Positions 8,733 through 19,331 of a DNA stretch of 42,212 nucleotides are shown one piece after another. The stretch is taken from contig JABFRC010000324.1 in the NCBI GenBank assembly GCA_013141375.1, positions 1 through 42,212 of the forward strand, in the 5' to 3' direction. The position numbers were made by a program, and so were the translations under genes. The DNA is from Methylococcaceae bacterium (GTDB lineage: Bacteria > Pseudomonadota > Gammaproteobacteria > Methylococcales > Methylomonadaceae). The number at the start of each line of letters is the position of its first letter. The stretch's first letter is position 1. Below the pieces are notes generated by a model that did not search any database, was not told where the DNA came from, and saw nothing but the letters and a program-made list of their open reading frames with translations.

Positions 8733-8766
8733 TGAAAAAAAACAGCCATCAGAGTTGATGGCTGTT
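8733..8766 (-). terminator. Rho-independent terminator of the oxidase locus
   Basis: A perfect 11-bp stem (AACAGCCATCA at 8741-8751, complement at 8756-8766) with a 4-nt loop is followed on the minus strand by a run of seven T residues. It starts 12 bp after the stop of the PsiF-like gene and closes the accessory locus read from the right. Confidence 0.9.
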
Positions 8767-9047: not shown

Positions 9048-10877
9048 TTAGGGCACTATCCATTTGGCACCACTTTCAGCGATATTCATATCGCTGACTA
9101 AAGGTCGAACATAGGCACCTTTTGAAGCAAATCGCTGACCGATACCCAGACTGATACGAGGATAAGCCGTTGTACCAGTCCGCTTCATCAAGAAATCCAT
9201 ATCTACCTTATGTGCTGTTGGCTTGGACTTTGATGAATTATTAACAGGCTGTGGTCCGTGTCCACCACCACCCATCATCATCGACTGAACTTCTTCCTGA
9301 ACCTGCATGGCTTCACGCATTGATAGTGTTGCTTCGGCACGCTCAATTAAATAATCAGTGTGCAAGTTGTTTAACATTGAGGACAGCATCCACGAAAATG
9401 AATTCACCGCAAAATAGACCTCCGACTGCATTTTTTCATCAAGCAAGGTTAATTGCCGATATCTGATCCAGTCATTAAATCGCGTTAGATTTGCCGAACG
9501 CATTTTCGGCAACTCAGAACGTTGGATCAGCCAGGCGTTTTTGCTCCAGTCAACTGACCATGCCGGCATCTTTTCACCTGCCAGCGTCGAAGATACATAG
9601 ACTGCTGACAACGGTGCGGCAAGACCAGTTAAAGAGTTATTCAGTTCATTATCTTTTAACCATAACAGCACTGCATCTTCAGGCTTTAAGCTTTTAAGTA
9701 AGGTTGCCGTTGAATCCGCTGCTGATTGATTTAACACAATGTCCTGAATGTCTGCACCGGACTTGGCAAGATGCCTACGCACTGTTGAAGCCGCTTTTTG
9801 TGCGAGTGCTGACTCACCTATTAACTGCACAATCTTGCCGGGTTTTTTCGAAGTGGATAAAAGCTGTTTACTGATAACGTCCGCCTCTAACTGAATGCCC
9901 GCAGAAAAATAAAGACTGTATTTGCCTTTATTCGCTTCTTCAGGCACTAGATCGACGCTCGGGAACCAGCAAGCCACTTTTTGGATTTCACAAAAATCCT
10001 GCACCGGTTGCCATTCACTTTCTGACAGCCCTGATAGCACCGCAAAAACCGGCTTTTCTTGCTGCCGCTTTTCCAGTTGCTCCGCCCATGTGGAACTAGG
10101 TCCATTGAGTTCCCAGACATCAAGTGCCCATGTACGCCGGCTATGTAAACGTTTCTCAATGGGTGTGATTCTATGTTTTCCTGCCGTTGCAACATTGACA
10201 TTATGCTGATTCAGTATTGCATTTAAGGTATCTACAAACACCTTGCGTCGTTCGGGACTTACATCAGGCGTAATCACTGTGGCCAGATGTATTTCCTTTT
10301 CTGCAGCGCCGGGTGACCAAGTTTTCGACAAGGTTTTCAAGTACGCCGACACCGCACGTAACTCCTCATCTGTGAGCTCATAGCGCGGCATCAATGCACT
10401 TAATTTCCGTCCCGATACATGTTGCCCCAAACGCACCGCCGACCTGAATGATTTGTCATCATAAGGTTTGGGCGGGGTAGATAAACTCTTATTAAACAGT
10501 CTATCCACCTCAACAATCACCGGGTTGCCACCTCCGAATATCGCGCGACCTGAAATGGGGGGAATGGCTTCATTACCTTCCACGCCACCCAGACCACTGC
10601 GAAGATGACACTGAACACATGCGGCCTGTTGGCCTCTTAGCTTGATGCCACCCTCACGATCTGCAACGATAGGTCGACCATTTGACGATTTGCCTTCCAG
10701 ATACAGCTGACGACCCTGGAGCTCCAGAGCAGTCAGTGTCTCTGATGGGATCCCTCCCGCGACTGGCGCGGAAGGGTTGGCAATAGCCTTGGTTTCTCCT
10801 GGGTTGGAGGGCTCAGCGCCGACCACGAGGGTCTGCGCGCCGAGCAAAGCCAATACTATGAGTTTAAAGGGACTCAT
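9048..10877 (-). CDS. Secreted cytochrome c fused to a periplasmic-binding-like domain
   Basis: A 609-residue protein with a Sec signal (about 1-21, ending in VVGA). A mono-heme class-I cytochrome c domain follows at about 50-190: heme site CVQCH at C87/C90/H91, likely axial Met in SALMPRYELTDEEL (M163), and a closing YLKTL helix. From about 195 to 530 it has alternating beta/alpha segments resembling type-1 periplasmic binding proteins of the branched-chain amino-acid ABC family. The tail includes a Met/Gly/His-rich patch (SMMMGGGGHGP, about 532-542) that could bind copper. Its ATG lies 1 bp after the giant oxidase stop, so translation is almost certainly coupled. I infer that it accepts electrons from, or loads metal for, the oxidase. 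Confidence 0.82.
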   Translation of the reverse strand: MSPFKLIVLALLGAQTLVVGAEPSNPGETKAIANPSAPVAGGIPSETLTALELQGRQLYLEGKSSNGRPIVADREGGIKLRGQQAACVQCHLRSGLGGVEGNEAIPPISGRAIFGGGNPVIVEVDRLFNKSLSTPPKPYDDKSFRSAVRLGQHVSGRKLSALMPRYELTDEELRAVSAYLKTLSKTWSPGAAEKEIHLATVITPDVSPERRKVFVDTLNAILNQHNVNVATAGKHRITPIEKRLHSRRTWALDVWELNGPSSTWAEQLEKRQQEKPVFAVLSGLSESEWQPVQDFCEIQKVACWFPSVDLVPEEANKGKYSLYFSAGIQLEADVISKQLLSTSKKPGKIVQLIGESALAQKAASTVRRHLAKSGADIQDIVLNQSAADSTATLLKSLKPEDAVLLWLKDNELNNSLTGLAAPLSAVYVSSTLAGEKMPAWSVDWSKNAWLIQRSELPKMRSANLTRFNDWIRYRQLTLLDEKMQSEVYFAVNSFSWMLSSMLNNLHTDYLIERAEATLSMREAMQVQEEVQSMMMGGGGHGPQPVNNSSKSKPTAHKVDMDFLMKRTGTTAYPRISLGIGQRFASKGAYVRPLVSDMNIAESGAKWIVP

Positions 10878-10878
10878 A

Positions 10879-13800
10879 TTAAGGGACCAATACCAAGGTT
10901 GGAGTGACTACGCCAGTGGTTGGGTTAACTGTACCCACTGTTGCAAAGGTCGATACACCCGCCGCGTTTGTTGCCTGTACGCGGATGTAGAACGATGTAC
11001 CCGTTGTCAAACCACTGAGTGCGTAGTTAACAGGATTTCCTGTGTTGGCACCCGGCACCACTGTTGATACCAAACCTCTGGTGAACGTGGCATTGGTTGC
11101 ACGTTGCACGGTAAAGCCGGTTTCGTTAGTAGCGTTATCAGTCCAGCTCAGGTTGATTACACCAGGAACCCCTAAAGTGGTTGTTGCTGTCAGCGCTGTT
11201 GGAGCCGCTGGAACCGTTAAGTCAACCACATTGGAAAGTACTGGCGTTGATGACGGTGGTAATGCTGGTGCAACAACACCGGTAGCATTGATTGCCGTTA
11301 CCCGGTACTGATACGTACCTGAAACTACCGGTGCCACCAGGTTATTAATATAACTCACTGCTGTATTAACACTGGTTGAATTGGCAGCCGTGCGGGCAAC
11401 CGTAGCTAGCGTTGTCCAAACCGGAGGTGTAGCACCTGCAACCGTCGGAGTGATCAGACGTTCAATCACAAAGCCGGTTTCGTTGCTTGACAAGTCAGTC
11501 CAGGTCAAGGTGATGCGAGTTGCGTTAGTGATCACAGCAGTCGGTGCACCTGGGTTCGCAATGGCAGCCCCCGTTATTGTTACCGGTGTTGTTGATACTG
11601 CGGCTGAAGCAGCTGCTCCACTCACTGATGCGACTGTGTAGCTATAGGTTACGCCAGGTAACGCAGTCGTATCGATGTAAGTTCTAAGCGTACCGACAGC
11701 TGTTTTTTGAGTAGCCGTGCTGGTTACCGCATAGAACGTCGGTGCACCTGTTGCCAGACCAGTTGCCTGATCGATAATCACCCGTGAAATCTGGAAGCCG
11801 GTTTCATTGTTAGACGTATCAGTCCAGCCAACTTGAATGCCGGTTGCAACTGAAGTAGCAGTTGCCGCTGTGGGCGCACTCAAGGTCAGGCCAGCAGTGA
11901 TACTTGCCGACAGATTACCTGTTGGAGTGACTGCCGATACCGTGTATGTATAGGTTTTGCCAACAACTGCGGTAGCATCAGTGTAAGTGCCTTTAGCCCC
12001 CGTGCCCTTAATAATCGAATATCTGGTATTTACAACTACCGGTAATGCTGGGTTGGTGTTATCGGTACGCGTGATGGAATATGCAGTTTCAGCTGCAGTG
12101 TTATCGATCCAGCTTAATACTATGGACGTACCCGTCGAAGTCACTGCAGTGAGCGCAGTTGGTGCACCGGTAATAGCGGTTGCTGCTCCACTATGAGCTT
12201 CGTTAGAAGGTAAAGAGAACGTTAAGCCGCCAGTCGCCGGAGCAATGGGTGTATTGGCCGCAACAACTTGATAGCTGTAAACCTGACCTACTGGTAATAA
12301 AGCCGTGTTGGCGGTTGCATCAGAATAAGAGGCTGCGCCGATGGCTGTACGTTGAGTGGCCGAACGATTAACTATCGCTATAGTGGTGTAAACCGTTCCT
12401 GCTGGAACTAAACCCGTAGTGGGATCAAGTGTTACTACTGCACGATTGATATGGTAAGCCGTTTCAAACGTGGAATTATCAATCCAGTTCAACACTACGC
12501 CAGTCGCTGGAGCTACTGGTAATGCAGTCGTCAAGCCCGTTGGAGCAGGTATGATCACTGTGGCATTCACCGGTGCGGTGTAAGCCGAATAGCCAGGAAC
12601 TGCAACTGCAGGAGCCACTACTACCGGAGTCACCACCGCACGGACAGTGTAGGTGTAAGGCGTGCCGACAGCAGCAGTGACATCGCTATAAGTGACTGCG
12701 GCGTTAATAGAGGTGCGTTGCGCGGCAGTTCTTGCGACGGTGAACACTGCTGGAGGCGTTAAGCTAGTGGTATCGGTACGCACGACTTCAAACGCTGTCT
12801 CATTTGCCGACATATCCGTCCAGCTCAAAGTCACGTTGGCACCTGCTTGTACTGCAGTCAATGCAGTCGGTGCAACAATAGACAAGGTAACATTGGCTTG
12901 GTTGGATGGAGACGACATCGACACAGTGGCTAATGCAGGAGCAACAGCGGCCACTGTTCTCACAGCGCGGACCTGATAGATATAGCTTTGTCCAGCCGCC
13001 GCGGTCGTATCAGTAAATGTGACCAGACCGGTAGTGGCAGTGCTTAACGCAGTAGAGCGTGCCACCGTACCTACAGCAGCAAATACTGGTGCTGCACCCG
13101 GAGTTGCAATTGCACGTTCAACCTGGAACGAAGTTTCGTTAGTTGATGCATCCGTCCAGCTTAAGCTGACACCCACCCCTGTTGGGCTGGCGGCTGTCAA
13201 GCCCGTTGGCGCTGTTACTGCTACCGCACCAGTCACTTGGCTAGATGTGGCAATCGGGCCCAGTATTGTTCCACCTGCAGCATCGATCGTAAGCGCTCTG
13301 ACGCGATAAACGTAACTTGCGCCCGTTGCCAGGGTGCTATCGGTATAGGTCAGGGTGCCTGCAGGCAGAGTAGTGCTTAAAGATACCCAGTTAGCAGTAG
13401 CCAATAGACATTGTGCGCTAGTACCTGCACAACGCTCGACTCGGTAAGCGGTTTCTCCAGTGGACGTATCAGCCCAGGTCAACAGGGCTTGAGTGACGCC
13501 ATTCACGACACTGGATATTGGTGCAGCCAAAGTTGGCGCCAACAATTCAGCCGGTGTCAGCGCGCTGACAGCTGCAGTGAACTGGGTATTGAAGTTAGCT
13601 TTTGTGGCGCTAACGCGGAACTGGTACTGCGTGGCAGGCGTCAGGCCAGTTACTGCATACGTCACCAGACCACCGGCCACACTTGCAGGTGCAGTGCCTT
13701 GTGGTAACCAGGTGACACCGTCAGTACTGAATTCAACCGCAAATCCGGCTTCATTGCTGGCATTGTCGGTCCAGGTCAGTGTTAGCGTTCTGGCGGTAAT

Positions 13801-16800
13801 TGCCGGAACCGTGCTGACAGCCAGACCTGTTACCGCTGCCGGTGCTTGCGCCAACGTGACAACGCTGGATGAATTGCTCAAGGCACCGTTATCAGCAACT
13901 ACTCGGTAGTCATAATCAGTGTTAGCAGCAATGGTCGCATCTTGAGCAGTCAGGATGTTGGCAGCGACTGTTGCAACCGTTGTCCAGCCAGTGGCTGCAG
14001 TCACAGCAGTGCCAGGCGCAGCACGCAACACGCGGAAGCCGGTTTCGTTGGTTGAGGATTCAGTCCAGCTAATGGTTGCAGTAGTGCCAGTGACAGTGAC
14101 CGGAGCAACTACAGGTGCTACCGGTGCCTGATTTACGGTAAGGGCATTCGCAAGGGTGATATCGCTATCGCCTTTGCTGTTAACGGCAATCACTCTGTAA
14201 GAGTAATCAGCATTTAATGGCGCGGTAGTGTCCTTGAAAGTCAAGGTATTGGCAGCAACAAGTGTAGTGCCGACTTGCGCGTAAGTACCAATCACGCCAT
14301 TGGTGATCATGGCGCGCTCAACACGGAAACCGGTTTCATTGCTGGACTTGTCTTGCCAGGTCAAGTCAATTGCTCCAGTAGTCACTGTTGACAGCACAGC
14401 AGATGAAAGAACTGGTGCAGCGGGTAGCTGGATCAAACTGAGAGCATTTGACGCGTTACCGGAAAGCGCACCGTTGACAGCAACTACGCGGTATGAGTAA
14501 TCGCTATTTGGTAATGCTGTTGCATCCTGGAACGTTGTGATGTTGGCTGCTGTCAAGTTTCCAACTGGCGCATAGGCTCCAATAACACCATGTAACACAT
14601 CAGCGCGTTCAACGCGGAAATTAGTTTCGTTACTGGAATTATCAGTCCATGTCAGGTCAACTGCCCCTGCTGTTGTCGTTGAGATTGCAACGGTAGACAG
14701 CGATGGTGCTTTTGGTGGTTGCGTAAGCAGTAAGGTGCCTGAAACTGCGCTGTCACCTTTGCTGTTGGTTGCAAAAACCCGATAGTCGTAATCCAGATTA
14801 GGATCTTTCGTGGTGGTATCTTGTGCCGTGGTTACATTTTTACTTGCTACAGTGGCTGCTGTCGTCCAGGTATTGGCACCCGCCGGGCTGCGTTCTACCC
14901 GGAAACCTGTTTCGTTGGTGGCGTTGTCAGTCCAGTTGATATCAACAGCAGTTGGCGTAACTGTTGAGGCAGCTACTGTGTTTATTGTCGGTGCAGCAGG
15001 TGTCTGTACAAACTCCGTAAACGTGGCTGATGGTGTTTCACCTGCTTGGGTCACAGCAACCACGCGAAAGGCCAGGTTCGTATTTGGTTTTGCTGTTGCA
15101 AGACCTGCAAAATCAGTTTCAAAGCTCTCTTTGTTGGCAATGACGTTGATTTTGCCTGGTTGATCGAGTTTTAGAGTGGCAAAATCGGGGATTTTGACAA
15201 ATGACTCCGTTGTTAACGATGTCGCATTGGCATAGGCTTGCGGCACGCCATCAATGGTGGGTGCATATTCAACCCGGAAGCCGATTTCATTGGCCGGGTT
15301 GCCGGATTTGGTAGGGTTACCATTTGCATCAGTACCAGGAATGAATGCACTGCCAGAAACAGGTGTAGCATCCGTCCAGGTGACCTTGCCATTGACCTCA
15401 TCCAGGGCAACGCCTGTTGGCGCACTAGGTGCTACTACAGGAATTGGCTTGAAGATCATCGGACGCATCAGGTCGTTTTCTTCATGACCCAGAATATGGC
15501 AATGGAACACATATTCCCAGCCATAGTTCTGGATGTCGTTGATGACGGCTGGTTTTGTCACAGGCAGGTTAGTGACGGGATCGATAGCAGGCAAACCTGT
15601 GTTTGGATCGAGTACCGCTATACCAGGGATGGCTTGACCCGTCAGAAGATCGTATTGCAGGAAGGCTTCAGGGATAACGGAGCCTGGAGCTGCTGCGCTA
15701 TAGTTCATTGAAGTATTGGTGTCATCGTTAGGATTTAAGGTTGGATCCTTCAGACGTACGCTGTCCGGTAAACCAAATGGTAGAGCCGGGGTGATTGGCT
15801 TGAGCGCAACAATCACGTCCTGGAACGGCCAGTTTTGTACCGTTTCCTTCCAGCCCGCTTCATCCGGCGTCGGATTGACTAATGTGTTTGTAGCATCATG
15901 GTTAACCCGCGCAAGGACTTGCACGTTATATAAATGGAAGTGGATAGGATGGTTATCGGCATCGTTGTTTCTGATATGCCAGTACTGAACTTTTCCTTCC
16001 TCAACTATTTCGGTAGCTTGGTCGATGTAGCCGATAGGCGTTTCTTTGCCAGCAATGGTCAACACTTTATTCGTACCAAAGTTAGCGATCAATCGACCAA
16101 AATTAACGTCTTCGCCGCCTTCGATACTTTTATACTGTATATCTAACCCTGTGTGAGCGGTCATCCAGTCATTTAACGTCACTGGAATAGGTTGGCCGGC
16201 AACATCGGTTAATGGGTTGCCTGTGGCTGGGTCAATTTTTACTGTGGGTTTGCCATCGTAAACAACACCACTTTCGATGTGAGCATCCGCTTTGGCTGCG
16301 TAAGCCGCAGGCAATACGGTTGCCAGTGGGCCACCATTACCGGCTGGATCATAGGCCGGGTCAGCTGCAGAGGCAGCGACCTTGATTTGCATGATGGTGC
16401 GCGTATTTGGGCCATAGCCTGGCAAGGTCGTTGGCGCGCCACCTGCAGACGTACGATCCGGGTTGCCGGTGAAATAATCGTAATTCGGGTCGCCGGTTGG
16501 GATAGGGGCAACCGAATCATTGTACATAATCAGTGTTTTTCCGGCGTATTGCGAGAAATCGATCACGGTGTCGCCACGTTCGGCGTTGCCCAGATAGAAG
16601 CCGCCACTGACTTCATCACCCAGGACATTATTCACCAGGTCATAGGCGAAGTTGATGGCCTTTGGTGCGCGTATCACGGGGTGTGGCAGCAGACCGGTTT
16701 CATTGCCAAACTGAATGATGGCAGGGCCGGCTGTCGCTGGATCAGGAATGCCGCCTACGCGTCCTGCCACAGTAGTAAGCGTAACAGTAGCGCCAGTGCC

Positions 16801-18666
16801 GGTGGGGTCGGTAATTTGTACTTGTGGATTGGAATAACCGGAACCGACATTGGTCAGGGTAACGCTGGTAATCGCGCCCGTGGCATCGAAAGTTGCAGTT
16901 GCTGTTGCGCCGCTGCCATAGCCTGGTTTTGTACTCGGGCTGATCGGGGCATCAATGATGGTAACAACTGGATTGCTATAACCTGCACCGCCGCCATTGA
17001 CCGGTATGGTAAAGCCGTTTGGCAGGACTTCCGGCACCATTTTGACTTCAGTATTGGTTCTGCCATCGCTGCTGGTCACCGAGCCATCGGCTTCCCATAG
17101 TGAAAGATTGAAATAACGGTCGTTGGCACCGTTGAGAAAGCGCACACGATAGGCTTTCGGATCGACAGTATAAGTAGGATAGGCCACGCCATTGACCATT
17201 GCAGTATCCATATAGGCTTCAGGTGACGTAGAAACACTGCCGTAATCACCCGTTGGTAGTGGTAAAAGCGGTTGCACGAAGGTAGTGCCCGCTCCTGCTA
17301 CCGTTGGGCCATAATCCCAGCGCCCTGCAGGGTTATCGATTAACAGGGCACTATTGGTTGGACTTTTAATAACAGCCGGTTCGTAGACATGCGGGAACCA
17401 CAGGTCACCAGGTTTGCCCCAGTGGCCTTGATCCCATTTTGCATCCTGGGTTGCGATATCATTGGGTACAAAGGTTTTATCCTGGATCACCAAGGGTAAC
17501 ATGGGCATGGTTGACGGAATCGCAGCAGCAAGTGCAGCATCTTCAGCCGGATCAACCACAAGGTAAGCCGTAGCCATGCCCACATAAGCGTTTTGACGAG
17601 TCAGGCCGAAGGTGTGATCGTGGTACCACATCAAACGCGCTGTTTGATCATTGGGCCAGTAGATGGTTTGCGCCGCTTCACCTGGATCGGGCATGTCGGG
17701 TACGTTAAAAGCCCGATCGCCGCGTTTGAGTATCGGGTCTAGCAATGGATCTGTTTCTGCAGAAAACCATTGGTGTGGCGTACCGTCACTGATCCAGGGT
17801 GAGTCGCCGCCATGTAAATGGATGGCAACGCGGTTTTGTGGAAAGGTACTGCCGATAATGGGCGAGTTACCAGCGCCAGGTAGGTTTTCGTCCACCGGCA
17901 GGAACATATCGCCTTTGTGTTGCAGGATGCCATTACCATCTAAACCCGCTCTGCCTTTGGGTAGCAGGTTGTTCATTTTGATACGTGTTGCGACGCCTCT
18001 GGTGGCGATAATCGCGGCTCCCAGGTAATGCGGTTTGTCAAAAGCGATGGCTGCGACCATAACCGGTTTGCCATCAATGCCTTTAACTATGGTGTGATCC
18101 CATTTATTGGTAAGGGCGTCAAAACCTTTTTCTTTGGCAACATAAATTTGTGAGCCGTCAGGGTATTTCAGTGAGTATGGATGACTGGATAGGGTATCAG
18201 CTGCCTGGGCATTGGTTGTCGCACGATCAATCTGCACATAGCCACGCAGCGTGGTGGGTTTGATCAAATCTCTGTGCATCTTCTCGGTGTATTCCACCAC
18301 GGCTATTTCGTAATAATCCGAGCCGGGATAGGAGGCGCTGTCCTTGGTGGTGACTGAGATGTATTGACCTAAGTTGTTAGCGTTAGCGGGTGTCAAGCCG
18401 GGTAAGGTATCCACGAACTTTCTAAGTTGCGGGCTGTTGGCGTAGTAAGTGGGGATTTGCACTAAGGCGCCACCAGGGGGGCAAGTGGGCGCCGACGGCA
18501 CAGTAAAGTCGACGGCTGAGCCATCGTCACAGGCAGGCACAGCGCCAGGACCTGCTTCGGCTAAATGATTGGTTGATAAGCTGCCCAGCGCAACTAACAC
18601 GGCAATCGACAGTCGTTTAAGTTGCAGTGTTGCAGGGCTTTGGTTAGTTGTGGCGTTCGGTTTCAT
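10879..18666 (-). CDS. Giant secreted multicopper oxidase with C-terminal fibronectin-III repeats
   Basis: A 2595-residue protein. The Sec signal spans about residues 1-39 (LSIAVLVALGSL core, cleavage after AEA). The multicopper oxidase region is about 40-1075, and all four copper motifs are intact: HLHG (283-286), HDH (349-351), HPIHFH (906-911) and HCHILGHEEND (1055-1065). The residue at Cys+10, the type-1 copper axial position, is Leu1066, not Met. A Gly-rich GSGY-type repeat insert sits at about 555-635. From about 1080 to the end there are about 14 fibronectin-III modules, each with the core W.D.S.NET.(F/Y).(V/I).R; these look like stalk or adhesion modules. Ordinary laccases have about 500 residues; very large bacterial members include the Leptothrix MofA manganese oxidase. 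The RBS AAGGA lies 7-11 bases before the ATG. Oxidation of Mn(II), Fe(II) or phenols is an inference; the substrate is unknown. Confidence 0.93.
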   Translation of the reverse strand: MKPNATTNQSPATLQLKRLSIAVLVALGSLSTNHLAEAGPGAVPACDDGSAVDFTVPSAPTCPPGGALVQIPTYYANSPQLRKFVDTLPGLTPANANNLGQYISVTTKDSASYPGSDYYEIAVVEYTEKMHRDLIKPTTLRGYVQIDRATTNAQAADTLSSHPYSLKYPDGSQIYVAKEKGFDALTNKWDHTIVKGIDGKPVMVAAIAFDKPHYLGAAIIATRGVATRIKMNNLLPKGRAGLDGNGILQHKGDMFLPVDENLPGAGNSPIIGSTFPQNRVAIHLHGGDSPWISDGTPHQWFSAETDPLLDPILKRGDRAFNVPDMPDPGEAAQTIYWPNDQTARLMWYHDHTFGLTRQNAYVGMATAYLVVDPAEDAALAAAIPSTMPMLPLVIQDKTFVPNDIATQDAKWDQGHWGKPGDLWFPHVYEPAVIKSPTNSALLIDNPAGRWDYGPTVAGAGTTFVQPLLPLPTGDYGSVSTSPEAYMDTAMVNGVAYPTYTVDPKAYRVRFLNGANDRYFNLSLWEADGSVTSSDGRTNTEVKMVPEVLPNGFTIPVNGGGAGYSNPVVTIIDAPISPSTKPGYGSGATATATFDATGAITSVTLTNVGSGYSNPQVQITDPTGTGATVTLTTVAGRVGGIPDPATAGPAIIQFGNETGLLPHPVIRAPKAINFAYDLVNNVLGDEVSGGFYLGNAERGDTVIDFSQYAGKTLIMYNDSVAPIPTGDPNYDYFTGNPDRTSAGGAPTTLPGYGPNTRTIMQIKVAASAADPAYDPAGNGGPLATVLPAAYAAKADAHIESGVVYDGKPTVKIDPATGNPLTDVAGQPIPVTLNDWMTAHTGLDIQYKSIEGGEDVNFGRLIANFGTNKVLTIAGKETPIGYIDQATEIVEEGKVQYWHIRNNDADNHPIHFHLYNVQVLARVNHDATNTLVNPTPDEAGWKETVQNWPFQDVIVALKPITPALPFGLPDSVRLKDPTLNPNDDTNTSMNYSAAAPGSVIPEAFLQYDLLTGQAIPGIAVLDPNTGLPAIDPVTNLPVTKPAVINDIQNYGWEYVFHCHILGHEENDLMRPMIFKPIPVVAPSAPTGVALDEVNGKVTWTDATPVSGSAFIPGTDANGNPTKSGNPANEIGFRVEYAPTIDGVPQAYANATSLTTESFVKIPDFATLKLDQPGKINVIANKESFETDFAGLATAKPNTNLAFRVVAVTQAGETPSATFTEFVQTPAAPTINTVAASTVTPTAVDINWTDNATNETGFRVERSPAGANTWTTAATVASKNVTTAQDTTTKDPNLDYDYRVFATNSKGDSAVSGTLLLTQPPKAPSLSTVAISTTTAGAVDLTWTDNSSNETNFRVERADVLHGVIGAYAPVGNLTAANITTFQDATALPNSDYSYRVVAVNGALSGNASNALSLIQLPAAPVLSSAVLSTVTTGAIDLTWQDKSSNETGFRVERAMITNGVIGTYAQVGTTLVAANTLTFKDTTAPLNADYSYRVIAVNSKGDSDITLANALTVNQAPVAPVVAPVTVTGTTATISWTESSTNETGFRVLRAAPGTAVTAATGWTTVATVAANILTAQDATIAANTDYDYRVVADNGALSNSSSVVTLAQAPAAVTGLAVSTVPAITARTLTLTWTDNASNEAGFAVEFSTDGVTWLPQGTAPASVAGGLVTYAVTGLTPATQYQFRVSATKANFNTQFTAAVSALTPAELLAPTLAAPISSVVNGVTQALLTWADTSTGETAYRVERCAGTSAQCLLATANWVSLSTTLPAGTLTYTDSTLATGASYVYRVRALTIDAAGGTILGPIATSSQVTGAVAVTAPTGLTAASPTGVGVSLSWTDASTNETSFQVERAIATPGAAPVFAAVGTVARSTALSTATTGLVTFTDTTAAAGQSYIYQVRAVRTVAAVAPALATVSMSSPSNQANVTLSIVAPTALTAVQAGANVTLSWTDMSANETAFEVVRTDTTSLTPPAVFTVARTAAQRTSINAAVTYSDVTAAVGTPYTYTVRAVVTPVVVAPAVAVPGYSAYTAPVNATVIIPAPTGLTTALPVAPATGVVLNWIDNSTFETAYHINRAVVTLDPTTGLVPAGTVYTTIAIVNRSATQRTAIGAASYSDATANTALLPVGQVYSYQVVAANTPIAPATGGLTFSLPSNEAHSGAATAITGAPTALTAVTSTGTSIVLSWIDNTAAETAYSITRTDNTNPALPVVVNTRYSIIKGTGAKGTYTDATAVVGKTYTYTVSAVTPTGNLSASITAGLTLSAPTAATATSVATGIQVGWTDTSNNETGFQISRVIIDQATGLATGAPTFYAVTSTATQKTAVGTLRTYIDTTALPGVTYSYTVASVSGAAASAAVSTTPVTITGAAIANPGAPTAVITNATRITLTWTDLSSNETGFVIERLITPTVAGATPPVWTTLATVARTAANSTSVNTAVSYINNLVAPVVSGTYQYRVTAINATGVVAPALPPSSTPVLSNVVDLTVPAAPTALTATTTLGVPGVINLSWTDNATNETGFTVQRATNATFTRGLVSTVVPGANTGNPVNYALSGLTTGTSFYIRVQATNAAGVSTFATVGTVNPTTGVVTPTLVLVP

Positions 18667-18876: not shown

Positions 18877-19004
18877 GGGTGATATGTCCCGCATTTTTTG
18901 GGTGATATGTCCCAATTTTTTTAGGTGATATGTCCCGATAAAATCGGGTCATATGTCCTGCAGATTCGGGACAATTGTCCCGAGAGGTTCGGGACAATTG
19001 TCCC
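18877..19004. promoter_or_regulatory. Six-copy operator-like array, 23-bp period, upstream of the oxidase
   Basis: Six 14-bp sites start at 18877, 18900, 18923, 18946, 18968 and 18991, with periods 23, 23, 23, 22 and 23. The last two are perfect palindromes, GGGACAATTGTCCC. The first four are GGGTGATATGTCCC or close variants, keeping the TGTCCC half in every copy (TGTCCT in the fourth). Such regular spacing, about two helical turns, places all sites on one DNA face and suggests cooperative binding of a dimeric regulator. The array lies 211-338 bp upstream of the oxidase ATG. The same motif recurs at 19814-19850. Confidence 0.8.
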
Positions 19005-19331
19005 GGCATCAAATGCAAATATTTCTGTCATTTATTTGAAAAAATAAAATGCACGTCGAATGAGTCAATTGCATTTTTGATAAAAAAACTGGGGGCTTAG
19101 TCGTAGGTAAATCTGTAGTAATTGCAAGGCATGACGAGGCTTAGGCGGTTCTATCGGTCATTGTCTGGCGATATTTATAAAGCCTGAAGTGGTTCGATAG
19201 TAGGATTTTTTTATTCGAAAAGTTATGCGTTTTTAATGATTTTAGAGCGAGTGTTTAGCAAGCAATGGGGCTGGATGTGGTGAATTTTTTTGCAAATTGA
19301 ATGTCGGTATTTTTTTTGTAACTTTCTGTTT
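19005..19331. other. AT-rich gap between the oxidase array and the PilZ gene
   Basis: A 327-bp AT-rich stretch with no coding frame that I can support on either strand. It holds several T-runs and would serve as the 3' flank of the PilZ gene and the distal upstream region of the oxidase. I see no clear terminator hairpin after the PilZ stop, so read-through into the oxidase is possible. Confidence 0.5.

Follow-up and report, generated by a model that had tools for sequence, protein, structure and literature searches.

The window analysed here is a stretch of 42,212 nucleotides from a Methylococcaceae bacterium (contig JABFRC010000324.1 of assembly GCA_013141375.1), and on its minus strand lies a pair of genes which almost certainly belongs to the OmpB/MofA-MofC family. 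The first encodes a secreted giant multicopper oxidase of 2595 amino acids (aa), and the second, 1 bp after it, a 609-aa secreted partner which joins a cytochrome c to a periplasmic-binding fold. As a whole, the locus may plausibly be an exported two-gene oxidase system acting on Mn(II) or Fe(II), a reading that is held tentatively. While the family itself is already known, what looks new is a two-gene branch with leucine as axial residue of the type-1 copper, together with the conservation of its coupling and its occurrence alongside complete mof-type loci. In the literature on MofA in methanotrophs and on the Crenothrix multicopper oxidase, the pair was undescribed in titles and abstracts, most subscription journals lying outside this coverage.

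Structure of the oxidase and its partner

Both open reading frames (ORFs) were confirmed, and both products have N-termini which look like Sec signal peptides when judged by eye. The stop and start codons of the pair form the junction TAA-T-ATG. A 1-bp junction of the form TAA-N-ATG or TAG-N-ATG is common to all five Methylococcales pairs of the branch, and gaps of 7-100 bp to the listed ORF starts are found in its remaining pairs, which come from outside this order. Chance was considered as the origin of the 1-bp coupling and was ruled out by its conservation in the five Methylococcales orthologues.

The oxidase possesses the Pfam domains Cu-oxidase_2 (E-value 2.6e-12) and fn3 (5.3e-37). The original prediction of a secreted 2595-residue enzyme with four copper motifs was borne out, with all eleven copper ligands (ten His, one Cys) being intact and also invariant in an alignment of 35 family members (Table 1; in the fourth motif, H1055C1056H1057ILGH1061). 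Its estimate of about 14 fibronectin type III (FN3) modules likewise agrees with the 14 FN3-like units counted between residues 1075 and 2584 with a hidden Markov model (HMM) built from the oxidase's own repeats; the same profile detects one such unit in the Leptothrix protein. In a Foldseek comparison, the core of the oxidase matched CotA laccase first and also bilirubin oxidase (E-value 1e-30, TMt 0.74-0.81). These enzymes have the same three-domain four-copper fold and the same ligand motifs, but they are of about 500 aa and have no FN3 stalk, and CotA has an axial Met; insertions bring the core of the window's oxidase to roughly double the length of CotA.

The partner was described in the original prediction as a CVQCH cytochrome joined to a periplasmic-binding-like domain, which was confirmed by a Cytochrom_C match exceeding the Pfam cut-off and by fold matches. 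Its haem motif (C87xxC90H91) and distal M163 are invariant in 45 relatives, so that the protein appears to consist of a mono-haem cytochrome with His/Met ligation joined to a binding fold. With phmmer, the partner drew only chance antibody matches from the PDB, and the assignment was decided instead by fold comparison, in which the AlphaFold model (predicted local distance difference test score, pLDDT, 86.7) beyond residue ~194 matched LivJ-type members of the type-I periplasmic-binding proteins with E-values down to 5.4e-11.

Table 1. Positions of the features of the oxidase-partner locus and its flanks in the window
Feature	Position	Strand	Evidence or remark
Giant secreted multicopper oxidase, MofA/OmpB family, Leu-axial sub-branch, 2595 aa	10879..18666	-	Pfam, alignment, tree, MofA comparison
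CotA-type oxidase core, residues ~40-1075	15442..18549	-	Foldseek and PDB sequence matches
Copper motif 1, H283-L-H285-G...SDG	17782..17820	-	Both His invariant in family alignment
Copper motif 2, WYH349DH351	17614..17628	-	Both His invariant in family alignment
Copper motif 3, H906PIH909FH911	15934..15951	-	Three His invariant in family alignment
Copper motif 4, H1055CHILGHEENDLM	15466..15504	-	Family alignment
Type-1 axial residue Leu1066	15469-15471	-	Within copper motif 4
14 FN3-like modules, residues ~1076-2584	10915..15441	-	Pfam fn3 and self-built HMM
MofC-type partner, secreted mono-haem cytochrome c and type-I periplasmic-binding fold, 609 aa	9048..10877	-	Pfam, alignment, model, MofC comparison
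Cytochrome c domain	10323..10730	-	Pfam and alignment
Haem site CVQCH	10605-10619	-	Invariant in relatives
Distal Met163	10389-10391	-	Invariant in relatives
Periplasmic-binding-fold domain, residues ~194-535	9273..10298	-	AlphaFold model and fold comparison
Terminator-like hairpin, 11-pair stem and T run, downstream of partner	8741-8766	-	Longest stem listed; number of such sites in the region is that expected by chance
Six imperfect repeats (GGGACAATTGTCCC twice, AGGACATATGACCC once, GGGACATATCACC three times), upstream of oxidase	18878-19005	-	Repeat analysis

Family placement and the two-gene sub-branch

The oxidase shows 44%, 38% and 47% identity to Leptothrix discophora MofA over three core segments (best E-value 3e-118), and the partner 41% identity to MofC over 579 residues, so the resemblance to mofA and mofC, first proposed from gene layout, is one of true homology. 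The partner alignment, used to scan named genomes, led to the locus of L. discophora CCM 2812, whose order of oxidase, FKBP isomerase, partner and SCO gene is that of the mof operon (mofA-mofB-mofC). The window keeps this order, with a homologous CotA-like giant oxidase carrying C-terminal FN3 ahead of a homologous cytochrome c/periplasmic-binding partner. However, its two genes are separated by 1 bp, with no mofB FKBP-type isomerase between them, no SCO1/SenC copper chaperone gene is present among the scanned neighbouring genes, and the axial residue is Leu in place of the Phe of Leptothrix MofA. The suggestion of a mof-like system thus stands for the homologous pair and not for the operon, and the locus is not counted as a mof operon because mofB is missing. 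The SCO1/SenC chaperone is common in mof operons, although not universal. Variability of FKBP and SCO genes has been described among OmpB/MofA homologues with FN3 and their MofC-like cytochrome c/periplasmic-binding proteins (He et al., 2017, PMC5566968), and the Rubrivivax mof operon is of five genes (PMC8218464). As described in the literature, the OmpB cluster of Geobacter sulfurreducens (GSU1394-GSU1398) is similar to the window in having a MofA homolog with FN3 and a MofC homolog in the absence of mofB, but differs in the SCO gene beside its MofC homolog and in being tied to Fe(III) reduction (PMC5566968).

The two checks that had been suggested, on phylogeny and on conservation of the partner, were both run, and neither refuted the original interpretation. 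In a tree built by a quick method from 49 oxidase cores, with branch support from the Shimodaira-Hasegawa-like approximate likelihood ratio test (SH-aLRT), the window's oxidase lies in a 31-row group including MofA (SH-aLRT 97), itself within a wider 40-row family (SH-aLRT 81, the outgroup branches being long). It stands apart from the CotA-like branch, the CotA side being four plasmid-borne relatives only, and the host genome's other multicopper oxidases also fall outside its family. The partner lies close to the oxidase in nearly every locus of the order-level sample with enough flank, and the named genomes show the same. There may also be solitary Met-type oxidases, as the stretches read of contig C39 of genome G110 contained no partner.

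This placement bears on a serious, if unlikely, rival to metal oxidation, namely that the core is a laccase-type oxidase of phenolic or humic compounds, with the partner's fold binding an aromatic or acidic ligand and channelling electrons. The nearest solved relatives by both sequence and fold are CotA laccase, bilirubin oxidase and phenoxazinone synthase, the best NCBIfam profile is that of the o-aminophenol oxidase PhsA (with a score far under its cut-off), and the partner's fold matches include the aromatic-compound binders 4f8j and 4eyq. Nevertheless, the tree parts the family from CotA-like enzymes and unites it with MofA, no aromatic-catabolism genes lie among the scanned neighbours of the pair, and CotA, the nearest solved fold to the core, itself oxidises Mn(II) in vitro (PMC3618234).

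Within the MofA group, the window belongs to a clade of 11 rows (SH-aLRT 100) comprising five Methylococcales and six metagenome-assembled genomes (MAGs) that are betaproteobacterial or unclassified. The partner tree likewise unites the partners from these 11 loci (SH-aLRT 100; row L130, translated from the wrong start, is to be disregarded). These loci consist of oxidase and partner only, no FKBP or SCO gene being found at any of the 11. All 11 oxidases have the type-1 motif HEENDL, and thus an axial Leu, where the sister MofA clade has Phe (20/20) and a third, methylococcal clade has Met in seven of eight members. In laccases, axial Leu or Phe accompanies a potential equal to or higher than that with Met; an L499M change drops the potential of one fungal laccase by 140 mV, and a Met-to-Leu change lifts that of the Bacillus subtilis laccase by 90 mV (PMC4220974). 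By analogy with these laccases, it is reasonable to infer that the Leu-axial oxidase has a high type-1 potential, above that of its Met-axial paralogues. The type-1 motif occurs in 18 of 237 genomes of the bacterial family from which the window comes, five of these having the Leu codon, so the system is patchy in its distribution. One Methylobacter MAG (G173, CAILCX01; contigs C7, C18, C23, C116 and C142) carries five MofA-type oxidases, three of them Met-, one Phe- and one Leu-axial.

Loss of the other mof genes by the hosts of the two-gene clade was considered and ruled out, since such genes are kept elsewhere in the genomes. An FKBP-linked MofC-type gene was found away from the Leu-type pair in 10 of the 11 host genomes, these being the window's own genome (contig C227), four other Methylococcales and five of the six others; the eleventh (G680) has a partner fragment followed by SCO at a contig end. 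This suggests that the pair is an add-on, and that the chaperones missing from it could act in trans. In the window's own genome, compared by search, contig C193 ends within a Phe-type oxidase gene and the remaining mof-type genes start on C227; from the gene order in L063, the two contigs apparently join into one split operon. This operon likewise has a giant oxidase, and its partner is 40-42% identical to that of the window, but it differs from the pair in its axial Phe, in possessing FKBP, SCO and a ~167-aa secreted protein, and in lying within the MofA clade. A conserved secreted protein of ~170 aa is found between the oxidase and FKBP genes of Phe-type methylococcal operons (L043, 297-800; L060, 11920-12456; L051, 10873-11385), with no significant Pfam family.

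The distribution of SCO also concerns the idea that the locus serves in copper handling or defence, with the oxidase as an extracellular cuprous oxidase or copper store. The host genome has pmoA and is therefore probably that of an aerobic methane oxidiser of the Methylococcales, which needs copper for its particulate methane monooxygenase, and mof-type operons carry the SCO copper chaperone. Such a role is nonetheless very improbable, given the absence of SCO at the window's locus, a score of 50.5 bits against the 525-bit cut-off of the NCBIfam CueO profile, and the separation of the oxidase from the genome's other multicopper oxidases in the tree.

Flanking DNA and related loci

The hairpin 3′ of the partner is consistent with a two-gene unit. 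Upstream of the oxidase, two of the six repeats are perfect palindromes, and the GGGACATATCACC form is confined to this array within the host genome. A tandem GGGACATATCACC array was present in none of 40 relatives, and a DNA search of the upstream array against plasmids gave no match. The repeats could possibly be operators or the remnant of a mobile element.

Further loci (L106, L116, L119, L129, L132, L142 and others) have a MofC-type partner and an SCO gene beside a secreted giant of ~2100-2600 aa, and their partners form one group in the partner tree. These giants are cupredoxin-like at the N-terminus and lack all of the copper motifs that were looked for; the L116 and L142 loci have, in between, two small multicopper-oxidase-like proteins (~525-560 aa). 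At 1159-2739 and 3869-6475 of L044 (G000:C221), a distantly related cytochrome c/binding-fold protein (26% identity) stands next to an 868-aa multicopper oxidase frame, and the two may form another pair built in the same way.

Possible function and significance

In the system proposed here, the two translationally coupled genes of this OmpB/MofA-MofC branch would give products exported by way of their Sec signals, and a GspD-type secretin, a match to which is present in the host genome, may be involved. The CotA-like core would oxidise a reduced substrate, for which Mn(II) or Fe(II) is the likeliest candidate. The electrons would enter at the type-1 copper, the potential of which should be raised by its Leu, and would pass to O2 at the trinuclear cluster, with the FN3 stalk keeping the core off the cell or in a matrix. 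The partner's His/Met cytochrome may be the dedicated redox partner of the oxidase and its periplasmic-binding fold may dock the complex or hold a ligand, while the isomerase and SCO chaperone would come in trans from the complete mof-type operon of the same genome.

Several points weigh against this proposal. The model of the oxidase core is only moderately confident (pLDDT 70.2). Four-copper oxidases can pass electrons to O2 unaided, so a cytochrome could be dispensed with. The potential has several determinants, among them the axial residue (PMC4220974). The role of MofA in manganese oxidation is only putative and the functions of MofB and MofC are untested, and the Geobacter homolog OmpB is required for Fe(III) oxide reduction, which is the opposite direction (PMC5566968).

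The last point raises the alternative of an OmpB-like conduit, in which the pair would attach to mineral oxides and move electrons between the cell and extracellular Fe or Mn oxides, possibly reductively at low oxygen. The partner would supply the haem for this, but one haem makes no long conduit, the O2-reducing set of four-copper ligands is fully intact and the host is probably aerobic, all of which makes a conduit improbable.

Returning to metal oxidation, it is conceivable, if rather unlikely, that the sets of MofA-type oxidases in methane-oxidising and some betaproteobacteria are tuned by axial Leu, Phe or Met to different potentials and substrates, with the Leu-axial pair being a specialised high-potential Mn(II)/Mn(III) oxidase dependent on a complete mof operon for its assembly.

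Whether and how MofA-type proteins oxidise metals is a question standing since 1997, when mofA was reportedly described. A MofA/MofC-type pair, long suspected of extracellular manganese or iron oxidation, is found here in a reduced two-gene form beside a complete version. This minimal version, together with the axial variants among the paralogues of a single genome and the methane-oxidising hosts, makes the function and the roles of the accessory genes directly testable, and metal oxidation by the pair would tie methane oxidation to manganese or iron cycling in stratified lakes.
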